A stretch of 40,780 nucleotides of DNA from a virus (IMGVR_UViG_3300010155_000018:1-40780), one strand, 5' to 3'; counted from the stretch's first letter, positions 23,314 through 40,174 are shown. Notes: generated by a model not told the origin, from the letters alone. A program made the numbers and translations.

Positions 23314-23322
23314 ATAATTAGT
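23314..23322 (-). promoter_or_regulatory. Late element before the tape measure gene
   Basis: Minus-strand ACTAATTAT, a copy of the shared ACTANTTAY element. It follows a terminator and is 17 bases before the TTG start, with the GAGG ribosome site between. Confidence 0.6.
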
Positions 23323-23330
23323 CTAAATAC

Positions 23331-23358
23331 AAAAAAGGCAAGAGTTCTATCTCTTGCC
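23331..23358 (-). terminator. Rho-independent terminator after tail-assembly genes
   Basis: Minus-strand GGCAAGAG and CTCTTGCC form an 8-bp stem with a 6-base loop followed by TTTTTT. It overlaps the last codons of the 80-residue gene and separates the tube/chaperone unit from the tape measure unit. Confidence 0.85.
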
Positions 23359-23589
23359 TCTGCCGGGCGGAGGGGCCCCTAATCCTCGGGGTTGATTGTG
23401 GGCTGTCAGCGTCTGACTGTTGCTGCTTCCCTTGGAACTGCTCTCCATAGCTTCGTTTTCGTCTTCAAGTTGCTTAATAAGACGCTGTGTGAACCAGTCA
23501 CGAAGCCCAATTGGCAAATTATAAGCCTCTGCAAATGACCAACCTCCCGCATATTTTAAGAAGAAGAACTGCTCATACACGTTCTGCAT
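23347..23589 (-). CDS. Small tail-assembly chaperone-like protein
   Basis: An 80-residue protein from ATG 23589, five bases past the stop of the preceding gene. The core reads EQFFFLKYAGGWSFAEAYNL then PIGLRDWFTQRLIKQLEDE. The tail is Ser/Gln/Pro/Gly rich. Position just before the tape measure is where tail-assembly chaperones lie. There is no good Shine-Dalgarno before the ATG. The same frame is open further upstream through the end of the preceding gene (to 23670), which permits expression as a frameshift extension of that gene. Confidence 0.65.
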   Translation of the reverse strand: MQNVYEQFFFLKYAGGWSFAEAYNLPIGLRDWFTQRLIKQLEDENEAMESSSKGSSNSQTLTAHNQPRGLGAPPPGRGKR

Positions 23590-23593
23590 ATAG

Positions 23594-24454
23594 TTATCTG
23601 TCAGGCCAAAAAAACTCCGCGTTAAGCGGAACCTCCATGTCCTGCTCGTGGCCGCACGCCTCACACTCAAATTCCTGAGTTAAATCAATATCAGGGTTGG
23701 TTGCGCGATACGCCATTCGTAAGCAGCGTGAATCAGCAGACGGAAGATTTTCAACCAAATATCCTATTAGATTAGGATCATCATCACCGTTTACTGCATG
23801 AATGATGCTGCGGAGTTGTAGAGTGATGTTCTGTTCTCCGTCTTTCTTGCGCTTTTTGCTTTCGCTAAGTTTAAGCAAGCGCTTTTCATCTCGTCCCGTA
23901 AGGAGCCGAAAAGTGACATCGACATTTGTCTTAGGGAGCACTATATTAAAGGTTCCATCTTCGTTGTCCACCACGCCCAACTCGGAGCTGCTTTCGCCGC
24001 TCAATATTTCAGCTTCGTTTAAATCAAAAGTAAAATCTTGGGCTGTACTGCATGCTGGACATGCAACATTCGTCGTATATTCGTTTCCATAACCAGAAAC
24101 GCGAGTTGCCACCACAATGGCGTTCTTGTCGCCAATGAAAAGGCTGTCTGGATCGATCTGTTTATTGATGATGAGATTCTTTAAAACTCTGTCTAAAGCA
24201 ATCCCCTTCTTAATGAGTGATCGCGACGTAAGGATATCCTCTTCCTTCGCAGTCATCTGCTTGATTTCAATGGTAGACTCTTGATGCAGAGGGTGACCCT
24301 CTGGATAAAAGCGCCCCCCTGACGGAAGATCTACAAACTCCGTGGGAACCACAAAGGAAAACGGAGACTCGGAAGCTCCTTCTGTTAGTTGTGGAACGGG
24401 CGGATCAGCATTCGTTTGCTTCGTGCCGCCAACACGTTCTCTATTTCGTGACAA
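23594..24454 (-). CDS. T4 gp26-type baseplate/tail-assembly protein
   Basis: A 286-residue protein with the family pattern VDLPSGGRFYPEGHPLHQ, IEIKQMTAKEEDILTSRS and LIKKGIALDRVLKNLI. I recognise this as the T4 baseplate protein family (T4_baseplate, gp26-like). Two Cys pairs, CPACSTAQ and CEACGHEQD, suggest a zinc site in the second half. In this window it stands where tail-assembly chaperones are found, between tube and tape measure. The start is a TTG with GAGAGG six bases upstream. The stop TAA at 23596-23594 lies just beyond a T7 run. Confidence 0.75.
   Translation of the reverse strand: MSRNRERVGGTKQTNADPPVPQLTEGASESPFSFVVPTEFVDLPSGGRFYPEGHPLHQESTIEIKQMTAKEEDILTSRSLIKKGIALDRVLKNLIINKQIDPDSLFIGDKNAIVVATRVSGYGNEYTTNVACPACSTAQDFTFDLNEAEILSGESSSELGVVDNEDGTFNIVLPKTNVDVTFRLLTGRDEKRLLKLSESKKRKKDGEQNITLQLRSIIHAVNGDDDPNLIGYLVENLPSADSRCLRMAYRATNPDIDLTQEFECEACGHEQDMEVPLNAEFFWPDR
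23608..23614 (-). other. T7 run at the junction of two tail-assembly reading frames
   Basis: The minus strand reads GAG TTT TTT TGG and reaches a TAA four codons after the run. Moving one base forward (or two back) on the T run gives TTT GGC CTG ACA GAT, which continues into the 80-residue protein. This could be a translational +1/-2 or transcriptional slip site. It is not a canonical -1 heptamer. Confidence 0.4.
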
Positions 24455-24485
24455 TATACACCTCTCAAATTATTGTTTGTCTTGT

Positions 24486-25085
24486 TTATACACCGAAGAA
24501 ACTCTTGCCTTGACTACCGGCCACCGCTGCTGATGAGTACACCGTCTCGACGCGAGCCCAGTCATACTTAAGGGTGACGCTCATTTCAGTAAGCTCATCT
24601 TCGCCATAGGACATGTCTCCGTATTTGACTTCGGTGATAAAACCGTTCCAGAGGGTCCACGTTTCAAGGGGCTTGCCATCAGAATCAATCTGTGTGATAA
24701 CGACAGCGCCGAGTGCACCGGCCGCCTTAGCCTTGGACATGGTGCCCATTTGTTCATTCGTAGCATTAGTTGGTGGTGAATATCCTGATTGTACCACAAT
24801 GTCTGAGAGAGTTGCAGCCATATCTGGATCAACCGGATCAACGAGTGTTACAGCGATTTCGTTCCAAGTTACAGAACCGGGATATTGGAATGTGTGGTTA
24901 AGATACTTGTGCTCTGCGGTAGATATGGAGAAAGATGGCTTCTGAACCGTCTTGGCATACCAGAGGACGGGCCCATTTCCATTTGGGTCGTTGATACCCA
25001 TAAATTGTACTGTAAATCTAAATGATCGTTTAGGATCTTTAAGTTGGGCTTCTTTGTCCCCAAAGTCTACTGACCAGAATGGCAT
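24486..25085 (-). CDS. gp19: Tail tube protein, gp19-like
   Basis: A 199-residue tube subunit forming the inner tail channel. The pattern RSFRFTVQFMGI near the N-terminus, the KPSFSISTAEHKYLNHTFQY then PGSVTWNEIAVTLVDP segment, and the late GFITEVKYGDMSYGEDELTE match T4 gp19 and related tube proteins. Size is close to T4 gp19 (163) with a small insert around TNATNEQMGT. It follows the sheath gene by 46 bases. A GGGAGA ribosome site and a late element (25109-25117) precede it. Confidence 0.9.
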   Translation of the reverse strand: MPFWSVDFGDKEAQLKDPKRSFRFTVQFMGINDPNGNGPVLWYAKTVQKPSFSISTAEHKYLNHTFQYPGSVTWNEIAVTLVDPVDPDMAATLSDIVVQSGYSPPTNATNEQMGTMSKAKAAGALGAVVITQIDSDGKPLETWTLWNGFITEVKYGDMSYGEDELTEMSVTLKYDWARVETVYSSAAVAGSQGKSFFGV

Positions 25086-25108
25086 TTTAAATTTTCTCCC
25101 TTAATATT

Positions 25109-25117
25109 ATAACTAGT
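25109..25117 (-). promoter_or_regulatory. Late element before the tube gene
   Basis: Minus-strand ACTAGTTAT, a copy of the shared element 23 bases before the tube ATG, allowing tube expression separate from the sheath. Confidence 0.55.
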
Positions 25118-25131
25118 TTGTTTAAAATTTA

Positions 25132-28100
25132 TTAGTCGTCGAATGACGCTCCAGTGGATGCAATCACGAAGTCAATCGCGATAAACTCAATTGCCCGTGC
25201 GGGCTTGACCATAATCTTCGCATACATGATGTTCTGATCAATAAGGTCAGGGGTGGTGGTCGACTCGTCAAGAATCAGCCTGTAATCGGTGATACCGAAG
25301 GTAACTTTGACGTTCGCCAGGAACGGCTCAACCAAAGCGCGGAACCGGTTCCATGTAGCCTGTACGTTCTGTTCGAATAGAATCTTCGAAGAGATAATGG
25401 AAATCTGCTTCTTCAAGTAGATTACCAACCGTCGGACATTGATTCTGTCCAGCGCTGACTGGCGCTCTTGAAGCGTCTTCTGTCCGAATACCACGATTCC
25501 AGTGGATGGGAAGGAAGCAATCGGATTGATTCGTGCTTCGTAAAGAGTGTCGCGATCCTTAGAGGTGAGACGCTCCGTTACATTTATCACTGGAATTCCT
25601 GCGGCGCCCTCGGTGAGACCGCCCCTGTTAAAGCCCGCTGGTGCGAACCACAGTTGCGACTTCTTCTCAGAACTAGCAAGAACACCCATCATGGCCACGC
25701 TTGGTGGGATCCAGAGAAGTTTTCCGGTACCCTCGTCACGAGTCTGAACCCATGGGTAGAAAGTTGCACCGTAGCTTGTATCAAGTTTGCGATCTCGCAG
25801 CGCGGTGGCTGCTTGAGTTGGAGTTGAGGCAAGACGGTCTGCTTTGTTGGCTTTATAGATTTCGTGACTTGGCAAGTACACATTCGCCAAGTCAATCAGA
25901 GCCATCGCATCGCCGCGAGCAGAACAAACATCCATAGCCTTCTCGGTTAATTGATCGTTTGTAAGTCCCGGCGCCACAAGCATATTCATGTCGATGGCTT
26001 CGGGATCAGCAACGGTGTCCATTGCGCGCGCCCAGGTATGGAAGATATAACTGTTGTCTTCTGTGGATGAGCCGGGATCCATTCCCTGGTTATAGAGCGG
26101 ATCGGGCTTCATGATGTTTAAGCCATCGAATGCTCCCCAAAGAGGTAGTGTAAACTTGTTGTATCCGGCGTCCAAGACATCCTTCCAGCTACCCGTTGTG
26201 GCAGATTGTTCTCGCGCGCGAGATCCAGAAGCATAATAGTATATACCCGTGGAACCAGAGATTATTTCATCTAAAGAGAAAACATATCCCCACCCAACGT
26301 AACCGCGATCACCAATTTCAGCCGCAGTGGCCGCGGCGGTCGGATCATCTGGCCAGTTTTTGGACCACATCCGGTGCATCTCTCCGATTCCAGGGGTTGA
26401 AATCGTGCTGTTAGTACCGCGAGCCGTTTGCATACCAAAGTAGGCATTTCTAGGATCGGTCAGTCCGCCGGCGGAGGCTGAGTATCTAATACGTGCCTTC
26501 GGGAATTCCATTCTAAGAGCAAGGGTGTCGATAACGCCACTTCCCATGAGAAGTGATGTCTTGTACGGCCCGCCCTGCGTCCAAGATCCGGTATTGGGGA
26601 TAGAATATCCCGGGGCGCCATAGCCGTTTGCTCCAAATGTTGAACCAGAGCCGGCAAATACCACGTAAGTCCCGCTTATAGAATGAGTAGAAAGACTGAC
26701 GTCATGTCCGGTCGCCGGATTCGTCACGCGTCGGTTTGTCGCCCCTGAAACATCAAGAAGCTTGGGTGGTCCAAAGTATCCGAAGGGAACGGTGACCGCA
26801 TCGATGGCGCCAGCTTCCACGTCGGCGTTCATTTGAATATAAACAAACTTAGATTGGTTGTCGTATTCGCCATATCTGCGTAATCTTTTCTCCTTAGAGT
26901 CCCAAGTCACATACATATCACCAACCTTTCGAGCCACAAAGTTGGGGCTAGCCGGGTTTAGGCTGCACTCGTCGTAGCGCTCAAGGATAACAACATCGTT
27001 ATCTGAGTCATTTATGTCACGAATAAGGATCGAGAAGGTACCATAATCACTGGTGGAATTATTCGATTGGCGGACATTGCTAATTGAAATTTTAACGTTG
27101 TCCATGAGCCACTCGCCATGTCCGCGCCCAACTAAACGGAATAGTTTTTGCATGTTGGGAGCGTAATAAGAAGTAGCGGCTCCAAGATCTTGCCCAATGA
27201 TCCAGCTTGTGCGCGCTTCCGTGGATGCCACTTGTTTCATTTGCGCCGGTGTGTTTTCGGTATCTACACCAGAGGAGCCCGAGTAACCAAGGGCAGTAAT
27301 CATTCCTACCAGGGTTGTACTAGTAGATAAGCTTCTTTCGAGAAGGTCTTGATCGAAGGTCTCACCCAAGAAGTAGTTAACCTCCGTGGCACTGGGATAG
27401 AAATTACCCGCCGTTGCCAATTGAGGGTTGGTATTAAGCTTCTTGCGCGCATAATTCTCAGAAGAGTCGTTCAGGTTGAACTTAATCTTCTTGCTAACGG
27501 ACGAAGCACTATAAACCAGAGTAAAGAGTCCCTGGGAATCACATTGGATCATCGTGTTGACTCCTTGGACACCCTGCGTTCCTGCAAGTCCATCGGAATC
27601 ATACGCGCCCCCCGAACCAGTCCCATACAGGCTTCCGGAAAGAAGAGGTATGCCGTTCTGTGTATAAATGACAGCTGCGAGCGACGCTGTAGCGGCGCTA
27701 CCTGAAATGATGGCGCCATCATTAGCGGCTGAAGCTGACGGAAAGACCCAGAGTCCCCATGCGCCGCCGGTAGTCCCCATGGCGTCCGTTGGTCCAGTAT
27801 TCGTTGTGGCCCAGCCTGCAGAGGCTGCGCCGCCTGCGGTACGACCTGCATCAGTCTGTTGTCCGAGGAGTCGCACGTAAGTAACGGGTGCAACGGCAGC
27901 ACGTAGGAATGCTTTAGCAGCGTACCCACCATACATGGGAGACATATAGTTACCCTCGCGGTAAATATCGCTTTGGCCTCCGCCGGCCACCGTGTCGCCG
28001 AACATTTCGACAAACTTCGAATAGGAATCCACCTTAACGGGTGTCATCGCTAGCCCGCGTCGGGCGCGTCCAATAACGACTGGTCCAATAGGCGGTGCCG

Positions 28101-28176
28101 TCCTGGGTATAAAGGAGTTATCGATCTCATTGATGAAAACTCCCGGAGATACAAACTTAAAATTCTTTATCGACAT
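25132..28176 (-). CDS. gp18: Contractile tail sheath protein, gp18-like
   Basis: A 1014-residue sheath subunit that contracts to drive the tube into the host. It starts SPGVFINEIDNSFIPRTAPP and ends with the conserved sheath C-terminal domain (RRLVIYLKKQISIISSKILF, then VQATWNRFRALVEPFLANV). This is about 350 residues longer than T4 gp18 (659). The extra length lies in the middle, rich in Gly, Ser and Thr, and is probably a surface domain insertion. A hairpin and a late element precede it, giving a leader of about 50 bases. Confidence 0.92.
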   Translation of the reverse strand: MSIKNFKFVSPGVFINEIDNSFIPRTAPPIGPVVIGRARRGLAMTPVKVDSYSKFVEMFGDTVAGGGQSDIYREGNYMSPMYGGYAAKAFLRAAVAPVTYVRLLGQQTDAGRTAGGAASAGWATTNTGPTDAMGTTGGAWGLWVFPSASAANDGAIISGSAATASLAAVIYTQNGIPLLSGSLYGTGSGGAYDSDGLAGTQGVQGVNTMIQCDSQGLFTLVYSASSVSKKIKFNLNDSSENYARKKLNTNPQLATAGNFYPSATEVNYFLGETFDQDLLERSLSTSTTLVGMITALGYSGSSGVDTENTPAQMKQVASTEARTSWIIGQDLGAATSYYAPNMQKLFRLVGRGHGEWLMDNVKISISNVRQSNNSTSDYGTFSILIRDINDSDNDVVILERYDECSLNPASPNFVARKVGDMYVTWDSKEKRLRRYGEYDNQSKFVYIQMNADVEAGAIDAVTVPFGYFGPPKLLDVSGATNRRVTNPATGHDVSLSTHSISGTYVVFAGSGSTFGANGYGAPGYSIPNTGSWTQGGPYKTSLLMGSGVIDTLALRMEFPKARIRYSASAGGLTDPRNAYFGMQTARGTNSTISTPGIGEMHRMWSKNWPDDPTAAATAAEIGDRGYVGWGYVFSLDEIISGSTGIYYYASGSRAREQSATTGSWKDVLDAGYNKFTLPLWGAFDGLNIMKPDPLYNQGMDPGSSTEDNSYIFHTWARAMDTVADPEAIDMNMLVAPGLTNDQLTEKAMDVCSARGDAMALIDLANVYLPSHEIYKANKADRLASTPTQAATALRDRKLDTSYGATFYPWVQTRDEGTGKLLWIPPSVAMMGVLASSEKKSQLWFAPAGFNRGGLTEGAAGIPVINVTERLTSKDRDTLYEARINPIASFPSTGIVVFGQKTLQERQSALDRINVRRLVIYLKKQISIISSKILFEQNVQATWNRFRALVEPFLANVKVTFGITDYRLILDESTTTPDLIDQNIMYAKIMVKPARAIEFIAIDFVIASTGASFDD

Positions 28177-28228
28177 CTTTTTGGTCCCTTCCCTCTTGTA
28201 AACTAATTTGAGTGATTGTCAATCATTG

Positions 28229-28237
28229 GTAAATAGT
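28229..28237 (-). promoter_or_regulatory. Late element before the sheath gene
   Basis: Minus-strand ACTATTTAC, 52 bases before the sheath ATG and directly after a hairpin. Confidence 0.5.
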
Positions 28238-28240
28238 ATT

Positions 28241-28261
28241 TTCAAGTCCAAAAGTCTTGAA
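28241..28261 (-). terminator. Weak hairpin between the gp15-like and sheath genes
   Basis: TTCAAG and CTTGAA form a 6-bp stem with a 9-base loop. The following sequence AAATAC is not a T-run, so terminator function is uncertain. Confidence 0.35.
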
Positions 28262-28293
28262 GGGATTTAATAAAATCCATTTTACTTCCCGAA

Positions 28294-29172
28294 CTAATCT
28301 TCAAAAAAGCCCTCATTACCCGGAACTGGTGCAACTTCTCTAGGAAATGTGACTTCGACGGTGTTTTCCTCCACCTTTACAATGGGCCGATCATCATTCT
28401 CGCCCTCTCCTATTATGTACCCCAGCACTCGAATGCCTATTTCGCTGGTATACATGCGCATATCTTCCTGTAAGTCTCCGATATTATTAGAATGAGTGAA
28501 GTCTTGATTGATGAATGCTTCGTAAGAGTGTCCATTGCGTTTCATTGTAAATGCGTTAATTTGTCCGGTCCTCGCCATAAATGGCTGAATTAGGCTGTTC
28601 ATCTGTTCCTGATATTCTGTTTTAATAACGATCTTATACTCCACATTAATATATACGGGAATTGGAATAGATAGGGACTGGATAACCACCTTGCTGTTGA
28701 CACGAGGATAGTATTTTTGGTTCTGTCCGCTTGCCGGGAGCGCTCGCATCGCTGCAGCCACAGCAAAATTGCGCGTCTTGTCCTGCACGATACGCTTGGC
28801 TATCACCATGCGTCCCGAACGACCGTTCTTGTTATGCGAATATAGATTGGCTTGGAACGATCCTTTGCGCGCAGGATCCTTGGCTATGCCTGTCCTCTCA
28901 ACACTCAGAAGTGGCAGTTTAAGCGCTCCCCCGTCGTCTCTAAGGGACTTCTCATGCTTTATCTGGTAAGACCTCTCTGGCGCTTCCCAGAGGACTGGTA
29001 CTTGCACATAACCCTCGTTGGTGCGGGCGCTTAGGTTGAGGTCTTTCTTCACCCATGACATGATGGCCATGTCAATGCTCTCGATGCTGGATCCCAGCAT
29101 CCCTATTTCCTTAAGGGTACCCTTTTTGAAGTCTGAGGGCAGCATTGCAAAATCAAAATCATCAGGTAGCAT
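28294..29172 (-). CDS. gp15: Tail completion / sheath stabiliser, gp15-like
   Basis: A 292-residue protein from the ATG at 29172 (MLPDDFDFAMLPSDF), preceded by GGAAGGGG. A longer frame begins at 29238, but that part only shadows the neighbouring gene's end. The C-terminal half has YKIVIKTEYQEQMNSLIQPF and EDMRMYTSEIGIRVLGYIIG, similar to the T4 gp15 family that terminates the tail tube and anchors the last sheath ring. Its place between the gp14-like neck protein and the sheath agrees with that role. It overlaps the upstream gene by 11 bases. Confidence 0.68.
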   Translation of the reverse strand: MLPDDFDFAMLPSDFKKGTLKEIGMLGSSIESIDMAIMSWVKKDLNLSARTNEGYVQVPVLWEAPERSYQIKHEKSLRDDGGALKLPLLSVERTGIAKDPARKGSFQANLYSHNKNGRSGRMVIAKRIVQDKTRNFAVAAAMRALPASGQNQKYYPRVNSKVVIQSLSIPIPVYINVEYKIVIKTEYQEQMNSLIQPFMARTGQINAFTMKRNGHSYEAFINQDFTHSNNIGDLQEDMRMYTSEIGIRVLGYIIGEGENDDRPIVKVEENTVEVTFPREVAPVPGNEGFFED

Positions 29173-29650
29173 CGAATAGCCCCTTCCTTGCTCGGCGGCA
29201 TCTAGCAGAAATCTCAAAGCCATGCTGGACTTGTCCAAACAGCTTTTTCTGCTCTTGTAGTTTAACTATCTCATAGTAATAAGTCCCATACAGCACAAAA
29301 TCACCTTCACGTACGTATAAGTCTTGATCTTCTTCAAGGCGGCGCTTGTGAAAATGAACATTAATCTCCCAAGTCTTGTCGATTGCCATATTGGACATGT
29401 ATTCAGTAGAATAGTCGGTAAACTCTACGAGCGCAAACACGCGCACCGGTGGGAGGTACGTTTTATCGATGGCTTCGCCGTAAAGCTCGTGAAAGTCCGT
29501 TCTTTCGATATCAATGGGATAATAGAGGATTTGCTGTCCAATGACTTTTTCAATTAATTCGTCATTGACCTGTTTTACCAGATTTCGCTCTTTTTCTCCA
29601 AAAAATAACGGTGGTGGGGGATTTTTAGGTCTGTTCCATTCGTCTGCCAT
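29162..29650 (-). CDS. gp14: Neck protein, gp14-like
   Basis: A 162-residue protein with the pattern ELIEKVIGQQILYYPIDIER, YLPPVRVFALVEF and VREGDFVLYGTYYYEIVKLQ, then GQVQHGFEISARC. These match the gp14 neck family of marine T4-like phages, which joins head and tail. It is shorter than T4 gp14 (256 residues). The start follows the upstream stop by five bases and has only a weak GGGG ribosome site, consistent with coupling to the gp13-like gene. Confidence 0.7.
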   Translation of the reverse strand: MADEWNRPKNPPPPLFFGEKERNLVKQVNDELIEKVIGQQILYYPIDIERTDFHELYGEAIDKTYLPPVRVFALVEFTDYSTEYMSNMAIDKTWEINVHFHKRRLEEDQDLYVREGDFVLYGTYYYEIVKLQEQKKLFGQVQHGFEISARCRRARKGLFDAT

Positions 29651-29655
29651 TCACA

Positions 29656-30927
29656 TTACCCCACAAATATGGGCAACGGAACGTTCTTGAAGGTAGTGGC
29701 CGCTGCCTCGCTCTTTTCACTATCCTGCTTCACTAGTGCGACGTACTCCATCTCCTTAAGCATCTCCACTAGCTTGTCTTTGAGGCTTGTTTGCTCCTCT
29801 TTTGCTTGTGAGAGAAGTTCACTGTGGTTTAGAGTTACGCTGTCGCCCGGAATGGGCATCGTGGTGAACTTACCGCGAATTTGACCCAACATTTCCTTAC
29901 ACAAAGCCAAACAGTATTTTCTAATCCACTGTTTACCTATCGCATTGATGTTTTTGTAGGGCAGATTGTCAAAGGGGAGTGTATTCGCGTTATTAACCCC
30001 CTCTGTGCCATCAGCCATGCGTGAATTCGTCTCCCACGCCTCGGGCTTCACATAAAACCTCACCCACATCTGATCTATATCCGCAATATCCCAGTGACCG
30101 GGCGCAGGGAACAGGCGCAACTTATTATCGATTAGCTCATAAGCGTAATTCGAAGTGCGCGTCATGATGTTGTCCTCATACATCATGGCCTGAAGTTTGT
30201 TCTGCCATGTGGGAATAACCTCAAATGTGGAATCGTCCGAGTACTGTCCGTAGGTGGACATATTGCCTACAACCCCAAAGCCCCCATAATAGCCATAAAA
30301 GCGCCACATGGCTCGCGGAGACTGGTAAAACACCTTCGTCACATAGACGCGCTTACCATCTACAGAGCCAGAATATGGGACTGGGCGCCCACGGTCGTCA
30401 TGTCCCGCCGCACTCGCACTGTTAATAATCGCCTGAATATCGTAATCTTGTTGTTTTGCTTTGGGCTTGAAAGACGCTGAATATTCGGGGATTGTTCCCC
30501 CAAAGCCGCCTGCTGCTGCGGCGCCGTCGCCTACACGCTTAGCATAGGTCATCTGATAGCGCGTAAAGCGCAAGTTGCTACCCGAGGGTCCGGTGATCGC
30601 CTCCCCTTGATGATTGAACGTGCCGGTAGTGTTTCCCAACGCATCTGAGAGCATGTTTTTACTCTGATGCAAGTTCAGAATATAGGAATATTCTAGCACC
30701 GCCTCTTCGTACGCAGCGTACACATTCGCGGGTGTAAGTTCGATATCTACCACGTCGCCACCGAGCTTCTTGTAGGTATAGGCTACCTGGGTGGCGGCGC
30801 CGCTCAAGAACTCGTTAGAGCCGGTATATATACCAAATGGTACCGCGGCTGCTACCTTGCCGGCGCTGCCGGTGCTTGTTAAGATAACAGTGCTAGTTTC
30901 TGATTTTGGATTAAGTGACGTAGGCAC
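29656..30927 (-). CDS. gp13: Neck protein, gp13-like
   Basis: A 423-residue head-completion protein. The N-terminal LTPANVYAAYEEAVLEYSYI and the C-terminal WIRKYCLALCKEMLGQIRGK, then FTTMPIPGDSVTLN, form a pattern I associate with gp13-like neck proteins of marine T4-like phages. The last 60 residues are a charged helix. The start is a GTG (30927-30925) with AGGAGG upstream; the late element ends just before that ribosome site. Together with gp14 and gp15-like genes it forms one transcription unit. Confidence 0.65.
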   Translation of the reverse strand: MPTSLNPKSETSTVILTSTGSAGKVAAAVPFGIYTGSNEFLSGAATQVAYTYKKLGGDVVDIELTPANVYAAYEEAVLEYSYILNLHQSKNMLSDALGNTTGTFNHQGEAITGPSGSNLRFTRYQMTYAKRVGDGAAAAGGFGGTIPEYSASFKPKAKQQDYDIQAIINSASAAGHDDRGRPVPYSGSVDGKRVYVTKVFYQSPRAMWRFYGYYGGFGVVGNMSTYGQYSDDSTFEVIPTWQNKLQAMMYEDNIMTRTSNYAYELIDNKLRLFPAPGHWDIADIDQMWVRFYVKPEAWETNSRMADGTEGVNNANTLPFDNLPYKNINAIGKQWIRKYCLALCKEMLGQIRGKFTTMPIPGDSVTLNHSELLSQAKEEQTSLKDKLVEMLKEMEYVALVKQDSEKSEAAATTFKNVPLPIFVG

Positions 30928-30945
30928 CCAAAAGCCCTCCTAAGA

Positions 30946-30954
30946 ATAAATAGT
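30946..30954 (-). promoter_or_regulatory. Late element before the neck operon
   Basis: Minus-strand ACTATTTAT followed by TCTT and AGGAGG, 18 bases before the GTG start. Nearly the same layout occurs before the Smr gene. Confidence 0.6.
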
Positions 30955-30965
30955 TTCTAAAACAC

Positions 30966-30990
30966 GAAGCTCAGCCCTATGTGAGCCTTC
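30966..30990 (-). terminator. Probable terminator after the Lys-rich gene
   Basis: Minus-strand GAAGGCTCA and TGAGCTTC pair with one bulge, followed by GTGTTTTAG. It lies between the 82-residue gene and the neck operon. Confidence 0.5.
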
Positions 30991-31013
30991 GGTTTAATTA
31001 ACCAGCAAAATTG

Positions 31014-31262
31014 TTACTTTTTCTTAGTTGTCGCGCTTTTTAAAGTTTTTCTTTTCTTCTTGATTGTGGTGGTCTTGGCAACAGTCTTCGCGGCTACGGC
31101 CTCTTTCACAGCAGCAACAGCCACCTCATCAAGAGTCGTTTCCGGCGCAATCACTTCTTCGACTACATCGGGCGTCACGATAGGGGCGACAATCACCTCA
31201 ACGGGGGTGTTGGTCTGGTTGCGCGCTTTGTTTTTAAACATCAATCTTCTACGGGGGTTCAT
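31014..31262 (-). CDS. Small Lys/Ala/Val-rich protein of unknown function
   Basis: An 82-residue protein. The N-terminus is basic (MNPRRRLMFKNKARNQ), the middle is Val/Glu/Ala rich and acidic, and the C-terminus is strongly basic (KKKRKTLKSATTKKK), recalling histone-H1-like tails. I do not recognise a family. Its own late element, AAAGGAG ribosome site and terminator support expression late in infection. DNA or scaffold binding in the head is a guess. Confidence 0.6.
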   Translation of the reverse strand: MNPRRRLMFKNKARNQTNTPVEVIVAPIVTPDVVEEVIAPETTLDEVAVAAVKEAVAAKTVAKTTTIKKKRKTLKSATTKKK

Positions 31263-31280
31263 AGTGGGGTCTCCTTTAAT

Positions 31281-31289
31281 GTAAGTAGT
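31281..31289 (-). promoter_or_regulatory. Late element before the Lys-rich gene
   Basis: Minus-strand ACTACTTAC, 18 bases before the ATG, with AAAGGAG between. Confidence 0.5.
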
Positions 31290-31360
31290 TTTAAAACCTC
31301 AAAAACGAAAATCTCAAAAAATTGGAGGCGAAAAAAATTTGGCAGATCGACGTTTTCAAG

Positions 31361-31391
31361 AAAAACCCCCCAACCCAAAAGGGAAGGGGGG
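31361..31391 (-). terminator. Strong terminator after the small virion gene
   Basis: Minus-strand CCCCCC-TT-CCC, loop TTTT, GGG-TT-GGGGGG, followed by TTTTT. A 9-bp G/C stem with an internal TT/TT bulge. Confidence 0.88.
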
Positions 31392-31430
31392 ACAATTTAA
31401 TGCATAGCAAAAAATTTATTAACTAAGTTA

Positions 31431-31886
31431 TTAGCTAAATGCGATACCGTTAGCACCGCCAGCGGCGGCGGTTCCGCTTACATACCAGTAAGTACCATCT
31501 GACACAAGGTGAAGTCGATCACCCATCAGTGTAGCAGTACCCCATGTAGCTGTCAGATTACTACTACCATCAGCCAAGTTTTGGGCCGCGGCACTAGGAC
31601 CACCAACGGCGCCTGCCATGAAGTCTCCGGCTGCTGCAACAACTGTGCAGACAGCTGTAACATAGTCTTGGTACTGAATGACGGTGAAATTCATTCCAGC
31701 GGTGGCGGCGGGTAGTGTGATGTCTACTCCATTTTGCCCCATCATGATAATCTTGCCGCTATCAGCGGCCGATAACGTGGTATCCGAAGTTACCGTCTTG
31801 ATCGCATCCACCTTGCGGTGAATTTGATTTGCATTTTCGTTAATCAGGCTACGAATTCGTGCCCAACCTACTCTTTTGGTTCCCAT
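31431..31886 (-). CDS. Small virion protein with fibre-tip-type module
   Basis: A 151-residue protein with a basic helical N-terminus (TKRVGWARIRSLINENANQI) followed by a beta-rich module: GKIIMMGQNGVDITLPAATA, FTVIQYQDYV, then MGDRLHLVSDGTYWYVSG. The same TLP...W(Y)xV pattern ends three other proteins of this window, so it is probably a head or tail decoration/fibre protein. It is a single-gene unit between two terminators, with its own late element about 70 bases upstream and a GGAGG ribosome site. Confidence 0.68.
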   Translation of the reverse strand: MGTKRVGWARIRSLINENANQIHRKVDAIKTVTSDTTLSAADSGKIIMMGQNGVDITLPAATAGMNFTVIQYQDYVTAVCTVVAAAGDFMAGAVGGPSAAAQNLADGSSNLTATWGTATLMGDRLHLVSDGTYWYVSGTAAAGGANGIAFS

Positions 31887-31953
31887 AATTTAAAACCCTC
31901 CATTTATGTGTTTATAATTTAGGTGAGACAAAAGATGTACTCCTGCCTCACAC

Positions 31954-31962
31954 ATAAATAGT
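31954..31962 (-). promoter_or_regulatory. Late element before the small virion gene
   Basis: Minus-strand ACTATTTAT, 67 bases before the ATG, directly after the capsid-gene terminator. Confidence 0.6.
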
Positions 31963-31968
31963 TTTCCA

Positions 31969-32003
31969 CATAAAGAAGACCCCCGCCTTTTTCAAGGCGA
32001 GGG
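31969..32003 (-). terminator. Terminator after the major capsid gene
   Basis: Minus-strand CCCTCGCCTT, loop GAAA, AAGGCGGGGG forms a 10-bp stem (one G-T pair), followed by TCTTCTTT. The U-tract is interrupted but the stem is strong. Confidence 0.82.
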
Positions 32004-32060
32004 CTTTCTGTGTCACGATTAACCGCGCTTTTACACTGATATATATTAAATGTTTATATA

Positions 32061-33872: not shown

Positions 33873-33902
33873 AATTAAATCACCTCCTTAAATATATAAT
33901 GA

Positions 33903-35171
33903 TTATTTGATTCCAGCTAATCTTTTCATCCGTTCTTGTAACGGATCGGATGAAGGCACCTCTTGACGAGAAGCCCGGATTGTAGAAGACCGACGACTAA
34001 TGGCCTCGCTCAGTGATTGTGGGCTGCGCTTAGGCTTAGCCGCCACTGTGCTTTGAAGCGTTTCAAAAATCGTTCTTGCTTCTGGGACTGAACCGGCGTT
34101 GGAAATAGCTTCGACAATTTTATCTTTTTGTCGCTCATTTAAGGAGGTATTTCGTAAAATACGGTTCGTATAAAGCAAACGAGCATTTGAGAGATTTACA
34201 TCTTGAAGATTTTCTCTCAATTCTTCAACTGCTTGCTTATATTGTGTGTTCTGCTCGGTGAGTTGTTTATTTTCGAAAACCAACTCTTCTTGAGCTTTCT
34301 TTAAAGTTTGTAAATGGTCTTGCGCGTCGGTGCTACGACGCTGGGCGAGTGCTTTTGACATGGCCCACTTCATATCTTCGGAAGAGCGTCCAGCCCAACC
34401 ACTTAAGTCGGCGCCCATATCAACGGTAAGCTTTTCCATGATGGCGTCGATCAACGCATCGGCATCAACTTGCGACTCTTGGGTTGGCGCGGAGCTTGCG
34501 AAGGTGCCCGGATCCTTCGGGGTAGTAACGTCCTCCCCCTCTTCTTCCTCTTCTCCTTCTACTGCGCTAGCTGTAGCAGATGACGAACCTTGAAGTGCGG
34601 CGCCGGAATCTTGTCCAGTCGTGCCAGTCTCCTCAAGCGTGTCGTCTTCTGCGCAATCGTCTCCCTCTTCGGATAACAGGTCGGCAAGTTCATCTTCGTT
34701 AATTTCAAATTCTTGATTCTCGCTGAGTTCCTCGCCCAACGCGGCAACAGCTTCTTGCAGCGCGCCAAGATCAATGGTCACATCCACCGGCTCGCCTGCG
34801 TTCGGAAATCCCTGTAGGTTCTTACCATCTAGGTCTGCGAAGTTGTCGGTCGCTGCGAGCGGAATTTCGTTGTCTTCGTCGATCTCGCCTACTGCGCCTT
34901 CTTCACCCATGGGGGCTGCGGGCTCTGCGCCCAGATCGCCACCGAGATCAGGTGGGGCTTCTCCGCCACCCAGGTCTGCACCCAAATCGGCACCACCTTC
35001 TTCACCCCCGAGAGGGTCCCCGAGGTCGATTTCATCTTGTTCTAACAAATTATCCAAGGTTTCTTTCACTTCTTGCGAATACTTTTCAATAACTGCCGTT
35101 TCGGCATTCTTTAGGGCGGCTTCGCGTAACGCCTTGGCATCGATGATTGCTTCGCTGAGCAAAGTAGACAT
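33903..35171 (-). CDS. gp22: Prohead core scaffold protein, gp22-like
   Basis: A 422-residue protein directly before the capsid gene, the usual place of scaffold gp22. I chose the ATG at 35171 (MSTLLSEAIIDAK) because AGGAG lies at good spacing; a longer frame starting ten codons earlier has none. Residues about 45-110 are Gly/Asp/Glu/Pro-rich and very acidic, and residues 280-360 are coiled coil. LLSEA near the start and QSLSEA near the end fit (I/L)xE sites of the T4-type prohead protease, which degrades scaffold. The late element lies 33 bases upstream. Confidence 0.8.
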   Translation of the reverse strand: MSTLLSEAIIDAKALREAALKNAETAVIEKYSQEVKETLDNLLEQDEIDLGDPLGGEEGGADLGADLGGGEAPPDLGGDLGAEPAAPMGEEGAVGEIDEDNEIPLAATDNFADLDGKNLQGFPNAGEPVDVTIDLGALQEAVAALGEELSENQEFEINEDELADLLSEEGDDCAEDDTLEETGTTGQDSGAALQGSSSATASAVEGEEEEEGEDVTTPKDPGTFASSAPTQESQVDADALIDAIMEKLTVDMGADLSGWAGRSSEDMKWAMSKALAQRRSTDAQDHLQTLKKAQEELVFENKQLTEQNTQYKQAVEELRENLQDVNLSNARLLYTNRILRNTSLNERQKDKIVEAISNAGSVPEARTIFETLQSTVAAKPKRSPQSLSEAISRRSSTIRASRQEVPSSDPLQERMKRLAGIK

Positions 35172-35203
35172 AAATTGACTCCTAATATGACTATAGTTCA
35201 CAA

Positions 35204-35212
35204 ATAAGTAGT
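35204..35212 (-). promoter_or_regulatory. Late element before scaffold and capsid genes
   Basis: Minus-strand ACTACTTAT, 32 bases before the scaffold ATG. No copy precedes the capsid gene itself, so scaffold and capsid are probably co-transcribed. Confidence 0.55.
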
Positions 35213-35248
35213 ATTAATTCGTTGCAACAACCATTTTTAATGATATGT

Positions 35249-37294
35249 CTACCATGTACCAATCGCTACTCTCTTCCATGTGTCGGTGGCGACACAAACA
35301 TAAATATAGTCCGCATCCCATCTAATCTCACCTTGAGTTCCAAAATCGCTAGCGCTCGAAGGGGTACCTGCGGTTCTAATTCGGATTGCATTACCGTTAA
35401 CATCAAGTGGAATTTCCGGGCTGTAGGTTCCAATACCGATCTTGCCGGCTGCATATACATCCCCACTTCCGCTCGCATAAAAAGCCGGGTTTTGGGTGTC
35501 ACTCTTAAGGGAGAGGAGCTTATCATTCTTCGATCCGCTTACATTTAACTTGGCGTCAAGGTGCATGCCGCCAACTGCAACCTTACCCGAGCCAGTAATA
35601 GCCATCGCGATTGGATTTGATGGCGTTTCGAAAATTGCTAAAACCGAACTATCAGAGCCACTGACATGAATCATCGCGTCCGAGTCGACGCCTGTGCCAA
35701 TATCAAGAGTAGAAGAAGAAATTTTAACACTTCCTGCAGGGTCTAAAGTAATATCTCCATCCACATCAAATGTAAGATGGGCAGCAGTAGCGTTATCATC
35801 TTGTGTTGTGATGGTGGTCGCACCGTGAGTGGTGGTTTGAATCTGGAAATAATCGCCACTATCGGCTGAGCTTTCAATTCTAAGATCAACGCCACCGTCC
35901 TCGATGTCAAGCTGGATTCCATAGTTGATGTCTCCGCCTCCAGCTTCGAACCTTGCTGCTTGGACGAAGCTGGTACCATTTGTTCCGCCTTGTGCATTGA
36001 TAAGCGCACCGTATACTAAGGTATTGCCGGCAGCAGCTGCGTGCGTAAGCGTTGGGGTGACGTGCAAGCCATACATAGTGTTGGCACCATCGGTAGCCGT
36101 GGTATTGTCCATATCCACTTTGATACCATACATGGTATTGTTTGACGTGGTGGCCGACGTCTTATCAAAATCTATTTCTAGTCCGGTTACAGTGGCGGCG
36201 TTGGCATCTGTGTAGTCCTTGTCGATTAGCGCGTCTCCTGCCACCACAAGTGTTACACCATCAAACGTAAGGTTCGATTCGACAGTAGCTTCATCTGCAT
36301 CTTTGTATGTCGCGACCCCATTAGCAGTAGAGCCATCCCAAGATATTCCTGTAGCCGGTAAATTACTCAAATTAGAACCATCACCATAGAAAGCCGATCC
36401 AGAGATATTGCCAGATCCAGAAATGGCGCCAGCCACCACGCTTGAAAACTCAGCGAGTGAACCAGTCACAGAACCAGTTAAAGTATTTCCATCAAATGTT
36501 AAGTTAACCTCGCCTGTGATGCCACCGGCTCCCGTGGAGGTGAGCACACGATTATCAGTTGCGTTGGTGTAAGAAGTAACCACTCCTGTATTTGTGAGGT
36601 TAGAACCATCACCATAGAAGGCAGACGCTGATATGTTGATGGAAGCAGAGATATTTCCTGTTACAGCTAGCACAGTGCCATCGTAGGTTAACCCCGCCAA
36701 CCCTTGCGCTGTTTTGATGTCGGTCCATATGGCCACCTGAGTGGCTACAGGGGTTCCCGTCTTACCGGCTAAATTGCTAGACCACACACGTGAGTCAATT
36801 TCATCGGTTAAGAGAGTGCTCCCATTGTAGACTACAACGGTGTTGTCCGTTCCTGCTGCGACATTAGGAATGTCAACTGTCGCAGCATTAATAGTAACAG
36901 AATCGCCGCTAGCGTCGCCAAGCGTGCTGTTTCCGGTCGAAGATAATCCTGCGACCGTTAAAGTGGTGCCGTCGAATACCATATTTGCAGAGCCCGCAAA
37001 AGCATTACTATTGTTATACTGAACCTGTGTGGTAGAACCTGCTGCGGTCAAGCCAGATGCAGGAATACCTGTCAGTCCGGCTCCATCGCCCGTATACGAG
37101 CCTGCATACACGCCAGCAGAGGCCGAAAAGATAACGGAAGCCGTAATGGCCGAGGAAGAAACGATGAGGCGCTGAACGTTGTTAGTCTTGAGCGCAATAA
37201 GATCGTCTTCGAAGTCAATCTGAGTTTCAGCTGGATCCCCTTCGTAGTTAATATCTCCGAATTTCTGAGTTCCTTTGCCACTATTGTATGCCAT
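35249..37294 (-). CDS. Repetitive tail fibre-like protein
   Basis: A 681-residue beta-rich protein with repeated GDGxxLT units: YTGDGAGLTGIPA, FYGDGSNLTNTG and FYGDGSNLSNLPA. Repeated LTFDGxTL strands also occur. The C-terminal part has GKIGIGTYSPEIPLDVNGNA then DADYIYVCVATDTWKRVAIG, a common end in marine phage fibre and appendage proteins. It begins MAYNSGKG, like two neighbouring fibre genes. Likely a trimeric fibre or head appendage; the exact place is unknown. The AAGGAAA ribosome site and late element (37315-37323) are just upstream. Confidence 0.75.
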   Translation of the reverse strand: MAYNSGKGTQKFGDINYEGDPAETQIDFEDDLIALKTNNVQRLIVSSSAITASVIFSASAGVYAGSYTGDGAGLTGIPASGLTAAGSTTQVQYNNSNAFAGSANMVFDGTTLTVAGLSSTGNSTLGDASGDSVTINAATVDIPNVAAGTDNTVVVYNGSTLLTDEIDSRVWSSNLAGKTGTPVATQVAIWTDIKTAQGLAGLTYDGTVLAVTGNISASINISASAFYGDGSNLTNTGVVTSYTNATDNRVLTSTGAGGITGEVNLTFDGNTLTGSVTGSLAEFSSVVAGAISGSGNISGSAFYGDGSNLSNLPATGISWDGSTANGVATYKDADEATVESNLTFDGVTLVVAGDALIDKDYTDANAATVTGLEIDFDKTSATTSNNTMYGIKVDMDNTTATDGANTMYGLHVTPTLTHAAAAGNTLVYGALINAQGGTNGTSFVQAARFEAGGGDINYGIQLDIEDGGVDLRIESSADSGDYFQIQTTTHGATTITTQDDNATAAHLTFDVDGDITLDPAGSVKISSSTLDIGTGVDSDAMIHVSGSDSSVLAIFETPSNPIAMAITGSGKVAVGGMHLDAKLNVSGSKNDKLLSLKSDTQNPAFYASGSGDVYAAGKIGIGTYSPEIPLDVNGNAIRIRTAGTPSSASDFGTQGEIRWDADYIYVCVATDTWKRVAIGTW

Positions 37295-37314
37295 GTGTTG
37301 TTGTTTCCTTTTTG

Positions 37315-37323
37315 ATAATTAGT
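37315..37323 (-). promoter_or_regulatory. Late element before the 681-residue fibre gene
   Basis: Minus-strand ACTAATTAT, 20 bases before the ATG, with AAGGAAA between. Confidence 0.55.
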
Positions 37324-37343
37324 ATTCTCGGAAGCAAATTGCT

Positions 37344-38471
37344 TTAGTTTCCCTTGGTGCCGATGACCCACCAATTTTCCCCGTCAGACTGGAGTGTGCG
37401 AGAGGAGTAGTTCATTTTTAAAACCATCTCGTCGTTAATGTCGATTGAGCCCTCCTGGGTTTTAATAACTATGGGATAAGAGCGCAAATTATATTTGTTG
37501 GCGTTAGCTTTCTTAATGTTGAGTATTCTCCCGGTATTATTGCATGCGGGAGGTAACATCACTGTGATAGGGTTCTTAACACTATCGCACAAAACTGTGT
37601 AATCGTCTGCTGCCACTTCATATAGTTTTGTCTTAATCTTCTTGATGTTGCTGATGACGGCGCCACCGCAGGTAAGCCCACTTTCAACATTCAGAGAGGT
37701 GGTAGCTATTTTTCCTTCAACTTTTAAAGTGTTTTGTGCAACATCGTAGGTTAATTCGGGCGCGGATGCAAATCCTCCCTTCCCTTTTAGCTGAAGTTCG
37801 TTAATTTCTCCGGCCGCTTGCGGGATTTTCAAGTTTACGTAGTTGTCGTAAAGATTAGCGAGGGTTGTCTTGTGAACTCCCCCTTGCGACACATCTCCAA
37901 CGAGCAAAACATCCTTATCACTCAGGTTTTGTCCTGCTGTCGTGATGCTATTAGCTTTGGTCGGGTCGATGACAAGGTTTTTGCCTCTTATTGTAAGTCC
38001 GCTTGTTGACGTGAGCCCTATACTAAGACCATCATCATCGGCTATCAGACCGGGCCCCGCTTTAAGCTGTAATGTGCCTCGCACATCTTGAAGTCCGGGA
38101 CCATGATCGATGTGGATGCCGGCAATAGGTTCGGTAAACTTGTTGTGAGGAACATTCGTGAGTCCCGCGCCAGAGCCTACAAAGTTCTGGGCATGGATAT
38201 TCTTGGTTTGAAGCGTTTCGCCGTCAAATGTGAGGTGATAATCAGCTTTTAGGGTAGAATCCTTTTGAAATGTAAGGACTGCATTTTTCATGCCGCCGAC
38301 CACTTTGGTAATGGCCACATCTTTCATTGTGGCACAGGGACTTTGAGCATCTGTGTCGTAAAAAATACTCGCGCTGATGGTGCTCTTGAATACCTTAATT
38401 CCCTCGATCTCTTGATCGCCGTATTGGTCGACCGATCCCTCTACTATGCCCTTTAAAACATTATAAGCCAT
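37344..38471 (-). CDS. Tail fibre-like protein with C-terminal shared module
   Basis: A 375-residue protein opening MAYNVLKGIVEGSVDQYGDQ, with FVGSGAGLTNV (the GDG/GSG-LTN fibre motif) near residue 100 and HLTFDGETL strands. The C-terminal 90 residues form the module found in three other proteins here: DYTVLCDSVKNPITVMLPPA then LQSDGENWWVIG. Likely virion surface appendage. It follows the Smr gene by 22 bases, with GGGGAGA before its ATG, so both share a transcript. Confidence 0.72.
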   Translation of the reverse strand: MAYNVLKGIVEGSVDQYGDQEIEGIKVFKSTISASIFYDTDAQSPCATMKDVAITKVVGGMKNAVLTFQKDSTLKADYHLTFDGETLQTKNIHAQNFVGSGAGLTNVPHNKFTEPIAGIHIDHGPGLQDVRGTLQLKAGPGLIADDDGLSIGLTSTSGLTIRGKNLVIDPTKANSITTAGQNLSDKDVLLVGDVSQGGVHKTTLANLYDNYVNLKIPQAAGEINELQLKGKGGFASAPELTYDVAQNTLKVEGKIATTSLNVESGLTCGGAVISNIKKIKTKLYEVAADDYTVLCDSVKNPITVMLPPACNNTGRILNIKKANANKYNLRSYPIVIKTQEGSIDINDEMVLKMNYSSRTLQSDGENWWVIGTKGN

Positions 38472-38493
38472 TATGTCATCTATCTCCCCGTGG

Positions 38494-38721
38494 TTAGCTT
38501 GGATTAGGCGCCTTATCTATAACTATTAAACTTCCAAAATTGGTGTAATTCTCAGGATAATATTTAAATTTATGTTCGTTTAAAACCTGAGCCACCAAAT
38601 CTTTCATTTTTCCTGAATGTCCCGTGATGATCCTCAGTGGACTTTCGTTTAAAAGTACAAAGTTTTCCACATGTCGCTGAACGGCATCGTGGTACATTCC
38701 GTGTAGGTCTAAAGTTTTCAT
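38494..38721 (-). CDS. Small Smr-domain protein
   Basis: A 75-residue protein from ATG 38721, preceded by GGAGG at ideal spacing. A longer frame reaching 38778 runs through a terminator and is not used. MKTLDLHGMYHDAVQRHVEN is the LDLHG start of Smr (small MutS-related) domains, and LRIITGHSGKMKDLVAQVL is the second Smr motif (TGxG-type, here TGHSG). Smr domains bind and often nick or cleave DNA or RNA; here the domain stands alone. It is expressed as the first gene of a late fibre unit, an odd setting. Activity is inferred. Confidence 0.78.
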   Translation of the reverse strand: MKTLDLHGMYHDAVQRHVENFVLLNESPLRIITGHSGKMKDLVAQVLNEHKFKYYPENYTNFGSLIVIDKAPNPS

Positions 38722-38735
38722 TAGCGCCTCCGAGA

Positions 38736-38744
38736 ATAAATAGT
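38736..38744 (-). promoter_or_regulatory. Late element before the Smr/fibre unit
   Basis: Minus-strand ACTATTTAT followed by TCTC and GGAGG, 14 bases before the ATG and directly after a terminator. Confidence 0.6.
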
Positions 38745-38747
38745 CAC

Positions 38748-38780
38748 AAAAAAAGGATGCCCCCCAAAAGAGGGGCATCC
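38748..38780 (-). terminator. Strong terminator after the 435-residue fibre gene
   Basis: Minus-strand GGATGCCCC and GGGGCATCC form a 9-bp stem with an 8-base loop followed by TTTTTTT. Confidence 0.93.
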
Positions 38781-38818
38781 AGTAAATAAAGACAATCCTG
38801 TAAAGACGAATAATCGAC

Positions 38819-40126
38819 TTATGTGATTAGCCACTTGTCGGAACCGACATAGGTAAACGATATAGCAGCATTCGGTGAGTTCAGAACCACGATGGTTTGA
38901 CCATCAATGGTTTGAGAACCAGCCTTAGAGACAATAAGTACATAGGTCTCAGCGTTCGTGGGCGCCTTCACGGTGACAACATCACCAGAGTCCGGAGAAG
39001 CTGGAAGCGTCCAAGTGCGATCGGCAGTGAACGTAGTCGAACTCCAGTTCATACCTTCAACAAGGGTAGCGTTAGCATCGCCGTGTGAGGTAGGGGCTGG
39101 AGAAGCGTCCGAAGACAGAACACCATTGGTGGCGGTAAGACCGGAACCAGCCATTGCAGCAACAAGGTCAACAATGCTTTCCTTCTTAGATGCGTTGGAG
39201 TCGTTGGCGTCGACAATAGCAATGCTATCGGCAGTGACGTCTACGGCTCCAGCACTTAACTCGTTAAGGTCGAGAGCTAAGACACCAGAACCAGCGGACA
39301 AGCCAACACCAGCTAAGCCAGTAGCAACGTCGTCATTGAGCATAGCATCAGTGACTTTAGTTGCGCCAATTGAAGCAACACCTGCGGCCAATGTAACGTC
39401 GCCGCTCATTGAAACCCAAGCAGCATCTGTGCCGTCAGACTGGAAGAACTGATGTGCGGAACCAACAGCAAGGGCTGATGGATCACCAGAAGCATCACCA
39501 AGAATAATCTTACCACGAGCGAGTCCGGCCATTTTAGCCAAAGTAACAGCGTTATCAGCAATTGTAATTGCCCCACCAGCAGCGATGGTAGCATCACCAG
39601 ACATTGCTACGTATGAGACATCAGTCCCATCGGACTGAAGCAGCGTAGCCGCGGAGCCTTTTGCAAGGTTAGCCGGGTCGCCAGATGCATCACCATAGAT
39701 GATAGAACCGCGAGTAAGACTAGCCATCTTGGCCAGAGTAACAGCGTCGTTAGCGATTGTTAGCGCGCCGCCAGAAGCGAGCGTAGCATCACCAGACAGC
39801 GCACACTCTTCATAGTCATTGCCATCAGCAATGAGCAGCTTGCCGGAAGTATTGTCCGGCATGACCAATGTAGAAGTAGAGGTCAAAACAGTGAAAGAAC
39901 CAGATGCCGGTGTTTCGCCACCGACAATGGTAGCGTCGATCTCGCCACCACCAATGTAGGCAGTAGTAGGATCGGCGTCGGCGCCAAGGACGTCGATGTA
40001 AGCGACACCGTCAACGTAAAGATCCTTCCATTGTGCTGCAGCAATACCAAGATCGAACACATCGTCATTTGAAGGAGAAATAGCACCACTAAGGATAGCT
40101 AACTCCGATTGAAACTTATAAGCCAT
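38819..40126 (-). CDS. Repeat-containing fibre/appendage protein
   Basis: A 435-residue Gly/Ala/Ser/Asp-rich protein. The start MAYKFQSELAILSG leads to DVFDLGIAAAQWKDLYVDG, a segment shared with the next gene upstream. Residues 111-175, 176-240 and about 241-270 are repeats of a 65-residue unit (SGDATLASGGALTIANDAVT, then LAKMA). The C-terminus has SQTIDGQTIVVLNSP then VGSDKWLIT, the shared end module. Likely a trimeric fibre shaft with a tip. GGAGG lies before the ATG and a late element about 40 bases upstream; a strong terminator follows. Confidence 0.75.
   Translation of the reverse strand: MAYKFQSELAILSGAISPSNDDVFDLGIAAAQWKDLYVDGVAYIDVLGADADPTTAYIGGGEIDATIVGGETPASGSFTVLTSTSTLVMPDNTSGKLLIADGNDYEECALSGDATLASGGALTIANDAVTLAKMASLTRGSIIYGDASGDPANLAKGSAATLLQSDGTDVSYVAMSGDATIAAGGAITIADNAVTLAKMAGLARGKIILGDASGDPSALAVGSAHQFFQSDGTDAAWVSMSGDVTLAAGVASIGATKVTDAMLNDDVATGLAGVGLSAGSGVLALDLNELSAGAVDVTADSIAIVDANDSNASKKESIVDLVAAMAGSGLTATNGVLSSDASPAPTSHGDANATLVEGMNWSSTTFTADRTWTLPASPDSGDVVTVKAPTNAETYVLIVSKAGSQTIDGQTIVVLNSPNAAISFTYVGSDKWLIT
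39211..39796 (-). repeat. Tandem 195-bp coding repeats in the fibre gene
   Basis: Unit 1 spans 39796-39602, unit 2 spans 39601-39407, and a third diverged, partial unit begins at 39406; the lower bound is approximate. Each encodes SGDxTxAxG, then an AVTLAKMA and a GDASGDPxxLA segment. In-frame copy-number change would alter fibre length. Confidence 0.7.
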
Positions 40127-40165
40127 ATTTTAAAACCCTCCATATTATAAGTGAGAAGTGCGCTT

Positions 40166-40174
40166 ATAAATAGT
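40166..40174 (-). promoter_or_regulatory. Late element before the 435-residue fibre gene
   Basis: Minus-strand ACTATTTAT, 39 bases before the ATG, just past the stop of the upstream gene. Confidence 0.58.

Follow-up and report, generated by a model that had tools for sequence, protein, structure and literature searches.

Virion genes of an uncultured ocean phage are preceded by a short repeated element, ACTANTTAY, which is very probably a variant of the T4-type late promoter used in Far-T4 phages and is probably read by a gp55-like sigma factor. The DNA analysed, called the window here, is a 40.8-kb IMG/VR virus fragment that carries head and tail genes of the T4 superfamily (a phrog_138 capsid, a sheath, a tube and a head-tail adaptor). 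In the proposed scheme, the host sigma70 would transcribe the early and replication genes from promoters of their own. A gp55-like sigma, presumably encoded in the missing part of the genome, would replace sigma70 on the host RNA polymerase and open the DNA at ACTANTTA, which would act as a -10 box, leading to late expression of the virion and lysis genes. We infer from the sequence that transcripts start at this box, that they are made late and that the gp55-like sigma binds there.

Identity between the window capsid and the capsids of Rhodothermus phage RM378, Microcystis phage Mel-JY01 and Flavobacterium phage immuto is about 34 to 45%, some of the alignments covering only part of the protein. 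A capsid tree, which left out the Far-T4 sequences of Roux 2015 themselves, sets the window, a marine clade, RM378, Mel-JY01 and immuto apart from T4, S-SSM7 and XacN1, with support of 100/99 and long branches. Judged by its capsid, the window phage is a member of the Far-T4 group. A near-DNA search among named phages gave no match for the window. Several other window genes were observed in passing. A short PolA-type DNA polymerase (395 aa, 13297-14484) is unlike T4 gp43, and an exonuclease-like protein is encoded apart from it at 6230-7222. A matrixin-like metallopeptidase gene (PF00413, below cut-off; 809-1348) adjoins the amidase gene and possibly belongs to the lysis module. A 286-aa protein encoded at 12440-13300 has a start that looks FtsZ/tubulin-like by eye, and no family or PDB match was found for it.

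Distribution of the element in the window

A search of the window for ACTANTTAY returns 12 matches, all of them on the minus strand, which is the coding strand for nearly all window genes. The expectation for both strands together is 2.24, and 12 matches were reached in none of 100 shuffles. When one mismatch is allowed, 59 matches are found against 51.9 expected; this loss of signal indicates that the box is strict. Intergenic DNA makes up only 2,139 of the 40,780 bases, and the chance that 10 of the 12 matches would fall there is about 1e-11 (about 6e-10 for 9 of 12). Ten copies precede virion genes (Table 1), the eleventh precedes the endolysin gene and the twelfth lies within a gene; among the window copies of ACTANTTA, none precedes a replication gene. 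The ten coordinates in the earlier note are all exact on pattern search and their positions before virion genes are borne out, but its list omitted the copies at 2354 and 16394. Its consensus is likewise real, except that the ninth base is loose, so that the true core is the 8-mer ACTANTTA.

Table 1 Putative late promoter cores, terminators and contrasting sigma70-type promoters in the window
Feature	Sequence or form	Position	Strand	Context
Late promoter core (putative)	ACTATTTAT	40166..40174	-	exact match; before gene 38819-40126; predicted start G 40161
Late promoter core (putative)	ACTATTTAT	38736..38744	-	right after terminator; predicted start G 38731; gene ATG 38721
Late promoter core (putative)	ACTAATTAT	37315..37323	-	before gene 35249-37294; predicted start A 37310
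Late promoter core (putative)	ACTACTTAT	35204..35212	-	before the gene adjoining the capsid gene upstream (ATG 35171); predicted start G 35199
Late promoter core (putative)	ACTATTTAT	31954..31962	-	past terminator, before gene 31431-31886; predicted start G 31949
Late promoter core (putative)	ACTACTTAC	31281..31289	-	before gene 31014-31262; upstream box at -17
Late promoter core (putative)	ACTATTTAT	30946..30954	-	past terminator-like hairpin; before head-tail adaptor gene 29656-30927
Late promoter core (putative)	ACTATTTAC	28229..28237	-	before tail sheath gene 25132-28176; upstream box GACTTT at -19
Late promoter core (putative)	ACTAGTTAT	25109..25117	-	before tail tube gene 24486-25085
Late promoter core (putative)	ACTAATTAT	23314..23322	-	past terminator, before gene 20696-23296; upstream box at -17
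Probable 11th late promoter core	ACTATTTAT	2354..2362	-	56 nt before amidase (endolysin) gene 1366-2298
Intrinsic terminator	11-pair stem	38755..38780	-	immediately before 38736 core
Intrinsic terminator	11-pair stem	31979..32004	-	immediately before 31954 core
Intrinsic terminator	11-pair stem	23334..23361	-	immediately before 23314 core
Sigma70 promoter, perfect	TTGACA-17-TATAAT	7688..7716	-	before deaminase-like gene 7219-7659; early-class contrast
Sigma70 promoter, 11/12 match	TTGACG-17-TATAAT	8880..8908	-	before UvsX-like recombinase gene; early-class contrast
Sigma70 promoter, 11/12 match	TTGACA-17-TATATT	12428..12456	-	before gp32-like ssDNA-binding protein gene; early-class contrast

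The copy at 2354 overlaps the last codons of a GroES-like gene. Because it stands before the endolysin gene, a typical late gene, it probably serves as an eleventh promoter. The copy at 16394-16402, deep within a gene of 1129 aa and with GCTATTTAT directly downstream, is probably a chance match. The mechanical ORF list miscalls two gene starts near copies of the element, and the better starts, at 38721 and 35171, each have a ribosome site. The ATG at 38721 lies 10 nt past the predicted start site of the 38736 copy and is probably the true gene start, the called one falling inside the terminator; for the other gene, the ATG at 35171 should replace the GTG called at 35201.

The surroundings of the copies also agree with what had been read from the DNA by eye. 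Terminator-like hairpins, three of them with 11-pair stems, stand directly before four copies (38736, 31954, 30946 and 23314), which bears out the view that several copies directly follow a terminator. The sigma70-type promoters that the earlier note ascribed to the replication genes were found as well, perfect or near-perfect ones preceding the deaminase-like, UvsX-like and gp32-like genes.

Conservation and promoter anatomy in related phages

The element is common to a large group of uncultured marine phages. Eighty related marine loci were fetched, with capsid proteins 58 to 100% identical to that of the window. Their coding strands carry 264 copies of the element and the reverse strands 10, as against 51 and 44 for a reversed-pattern control. 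This bias partly reflects the fact that most genes share one strand. The relatives, 3.0 Mb in all with an intergenic share of 3.7%, contain 407 distinct copies; 253 of them are intergenic, and of these 235 stand immediately before a gene. The reversed control pattern is intergenic in 21 of 399 cases and just upstream of a gene in 9. The element is therefore far from equally frequent inside genes, equal frequency there being what the earlier note had named as refuting its proposal, and the bias and gene-upstream placement seen in the motif search of the full window are repeated in the relatives. In a substitution table of forward against reverse strand, the consensus scores 99 to 0, position -9 is free with T preferred, -13 also accepts T and the ninth position is only loosely fixed. 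The closest long relative (capsid 69% identical) carries both the motif and a gp55-like gene, and its copies precede genes for sheath, tube, baseplate wedge and head-tail adaptor.

An alignment of 217 de-duplicated copies (214 for the upstream box) suggests a complete promoter. A purine occupies the position 5 nt past the core in 82% of the 217 copies and in 9 of the 10 listed window copies, and RA is found there in 50% of the copies compared with 21% elsewhere; this purine is the probable start site. When it is taken as +1, the core occupies -13 to -6, the position of the T4 late box. A new upstream box, GGNNTTT, lies about 13 nt before the core, at -33 to -27, in 57% of the 214 copies. Of the 214 copies, 121 have its G..TTT form beginning between -20 and -17 relative to the core, compared with a mean of 2.4 per other offset, and GGNNTTT was recovered by an unconstrained EM search. 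In the window, only three of ten copies have the upstream box, so that it would be helpful or optional rather than obligatory. The full form in the clade would accordingly read GGNNTTT, about 13 nt, ACTANTTA (-13 to -6), 5 nt and a purine (usually RA) at the presumed start.

The upstream box is not a mere by-product of terminators, as it is equally frequent where no hairpin was detected (100 of 183 such copies). In copies that lie past a terminator, the G-rich 3' arm and the T-tract occupy the register of the upstream box. The terminators at 23334-23361, 31979-32004 and 38755-38780, and those of clade loci, stand at a fixed short distance before the late promoters with their 3' arm and T-tract in the -30 box register, and are possibly fused terminator-promoters. 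MotA was considered as the reader of the upstream box and rejected: its family, PF09158, is absent from 11 clade contigs, the T4 control being positive. By this result the element does not qualify as a T4 middle promoter, which goes with an encoded MotA and a box at -30.

Relation to T4 late promoters and the gp55-like sigma factor

The T4 late box, TATAAATA, occupies -13 to -6 (PMC1524935), and that of Aeromonas phage Aeh1 is (R)CTAAATA, that is, (a/g)CTAAATA (PMC2988020, PMC1524935). The earlier note had seen a likeness to the T4 box running in the wrong direction for these genes. This does not stand: once the boxes are lined up by the inferred start, ACTANTTA takes the register of the T4 box and reads in the transcribed direction. 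In this register it matches T4 at 4 of 8 positions and Aeh1 at 6 of 8, which for an 8-mer in AT-rich DNA is modest evidence alone. Common to the clade and T4 are a box of 8 bp that spans -13 to -6 upstream of virion genes and contains T(-11)A(-10) and T(-7)A(-6), and a gp55-family sigma, which T4 uses with gp33 and gp45 and which is encoded in the clade relatives. However, the clade box has A-C at -13/-12 and N-T at -9/-8, and GGNNTTT at -33 to -27 has no counterpart in T4 late promoters, which lack an upstream -30 box (PMC2988020) and have no conserved -35 region. Aeh1 shares with the clade A/G-C at -13/-12, T-A at -11/-10 and T-A at -7/-6 and differs in having A-A instead of N-T at -9/-8; it is a close T4 relative and not a Far-T4 phage.

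A motif-free search of upstream 7-mers by strand yields a form between these boxes. ATATTTA ranks first for strand bias in immuto (39:3) and near the top in Mel-JY01 (26:8); it equals the T4 box with AA replaced by TT at -9/-8. With this intermediate, a series joins T4 to the clade. The two phages share with the clade a strand-biased TATTTA core upstream of late genes, but most of their copies have A instead of C at -12. Late promoter motifs have also been reported for the T4-like cyanophage myovirus Ma-LMM01; these are sigma70-like and the phage is without gp55 (PMC5780444). RM378, the cultured Far-T4 reference, was rejected as a model. Its sigma is ECF-like (phrog_1740), it has no recognisable gp55 and it shows no motif excess, with 2 and 0 copies of the element in 50 kb. 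The upstream regions of RM378 abound in TATTTAA and TTATTTA (31:19 and 24:13 on the two strands, against expectations of 2.7 and 2.4), and this distinct repeat may serve the phage as a promoter or operator.

The earlier note had advised looking elsewhere in the genome for a gp55-like gene. None is present in the 40.8-kb fragment, but relatives have one. The T4 gp55 profile, phrog_234, finds a diverged ORF of about 240 aa in long relatives, in 11 of 11 gp55-bearing contigs scanned, and the protein has 291 relatives in IMG/VR. The immuto and Mel-JY01 genes, about 30% identical to those of the clade, are annotated as hypothetical proteins. Comparison with seven gp55 proteins by hhalign gave 88.5% with an E-value of 2.7e-6 over 146 columns. 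Among 54 members, 14 matched Sigma70_r2; the scores were weak, with a best E-value of 0.0029, and fell short of the curated cut-off where this was checked. The predicted structure (mean pLDDT 84, pTM 0.46) retrieves phage sigma factors first from a viral library by Foldseek, with a probability of 1.0, and among solved structures in the PDB it matches whole sigma factors only weakly. Homology to sigma region 2, which marks the gp55 family, is hence indicated by Sigma70_r2, hhalign and Foldseek alike. Unlike T4 gp55, the clade protein has an extra C-terminal helical domain of about 65 residues past the gp55-alignable part; for sigma region 4 this domain gives no Pfam match, and PDB fold matches to whole sigma factors are weak. 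These data support the view that the clade protein is a diverged gp55 homologue, its likeness to T4 gp55 being weak at the sequence level.

The strand-biased motif is present in 20 of 20 gp55-bearing long contigs (for example 26:0 and 22:0), and 17 of 40 gp55-bearing contigs also have the capsid gene; as these are related genomes, the co-occurrence does not represent independent events, save in the comparison of immuto, Mel-JY01 and RM378. A reference study detected no T4 core transcription-regulation genes in Far-T4 phages (PMC4360716). The open-access literature yielded nothing that pairs Far-T4 phages with late promoters, and the sampled literature matches to ACTATTTAT were unrelated. The gp55-like sigma of the clade appears to have gone unrecognised and probably reads the box. 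The main proposal of the earlier note, a late promoter read by an altered gp55-like sigma, is supported by placement before virion and lysis genes, promoter anatomy, conservation in the clade and this diverged gp55 homologue.

A small gene at the 5' end of the gp55-like gene (9703-10125 in contig L132, with counterparts at this site in L134-L214) has a product whose N-terminus forms a hydrophobic helix and whose tail is acidic. This conserved neighbour overlaps or abuts the gp55-like gene in immuto, in Mel-JY01 and in those marine contigs that were checked. It was considered as gp33 and rejected, given that hydrophobic helix. No T4-type clamp (phrog_223) was found in 12 contigs, in a search without a positive control and with contigs that are possibly incomplete. 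The clamp loader (phrog_168) gives only weak matches in the clade, as compared with strong ones in T4 and Mel-JY01.

Alternative readings and significance

The -7 box of Bacteroidota has a T(-11)A(-10)..T(-7) pattern, and the element shares it. A primary or alternative sigma of the host, for example one that recognises a Bacteroidota-type TAnnTTTG box, might accordingly read the promoter in place of a phage sigma, and Far-T4 phages have been linked to Flavobacteriales hosts (PMC7198788, PMC13037479). However, the conserved C at -12, the A at -6 and the missing G at -4 misfit the Bacteroidota box, canonical TTGACA-17-TATAAT promoters precede window replication genes, and the clade offers a phage sigma. 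Purine-rich ribosome sites, which are not expected in Bacteroidota, also occur in the window. Reading by a host sigma is very unlikely on these grounds. A phage sigma might instead read the element as a promoter of the middle or continuous class, and within the clade a PhoH-like gene was found at least once behind a copy; with the window copies standing before virion and endolysin genes and none before a replication gene, this is slightly less probable still.

The element is strand-specific and lies close before ribosome sites, in some cases no more than 5 nt away, as would be expected of an RNA-level element in late leaders, such as a processing site, a stabiliser or a translation signal. Its position directly past terminators, the second box upstream at a fixed spacing, the start-site-like purine downstream and the register shared with known late promoters all favour a promoter, and its distance from the start codon varies from less than 20 to more than 100 nt. 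An RNA-level role is the most improbable of the alternatives. The late promoter read by a gp55-like sigma may be extended by a tentative and rather doubtful model, in which late transcription of Far-T4 phages would be independent of the clamp. The C-terminal domain of the sigma, absent from T4 gp55, would bind DNA, read GGNNTTT and so restore the two-box promoter that T4 replaced by its sliding clamp, and the terminators before late genes would double as the upstream box.

Most Far-T4 phages, a widespread group, are uncultured. A putative late promoter together with its probable sigma factor is now identified by sequence across the group. Late genes thereby become predictable in metagenomes. 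Should the clamp prove to be missing, its natural substitutes may be the upstream box and the additional domain of the sigma. Because immuto and Mel-JY01 have named hosts, the evolution of gp55 recognition becomes directly testable along the series of T4 TATAAATA, Aeh1 RCTAAATA, immuto ATATTTA and the clade form, ACTANTTA with its upstream box.
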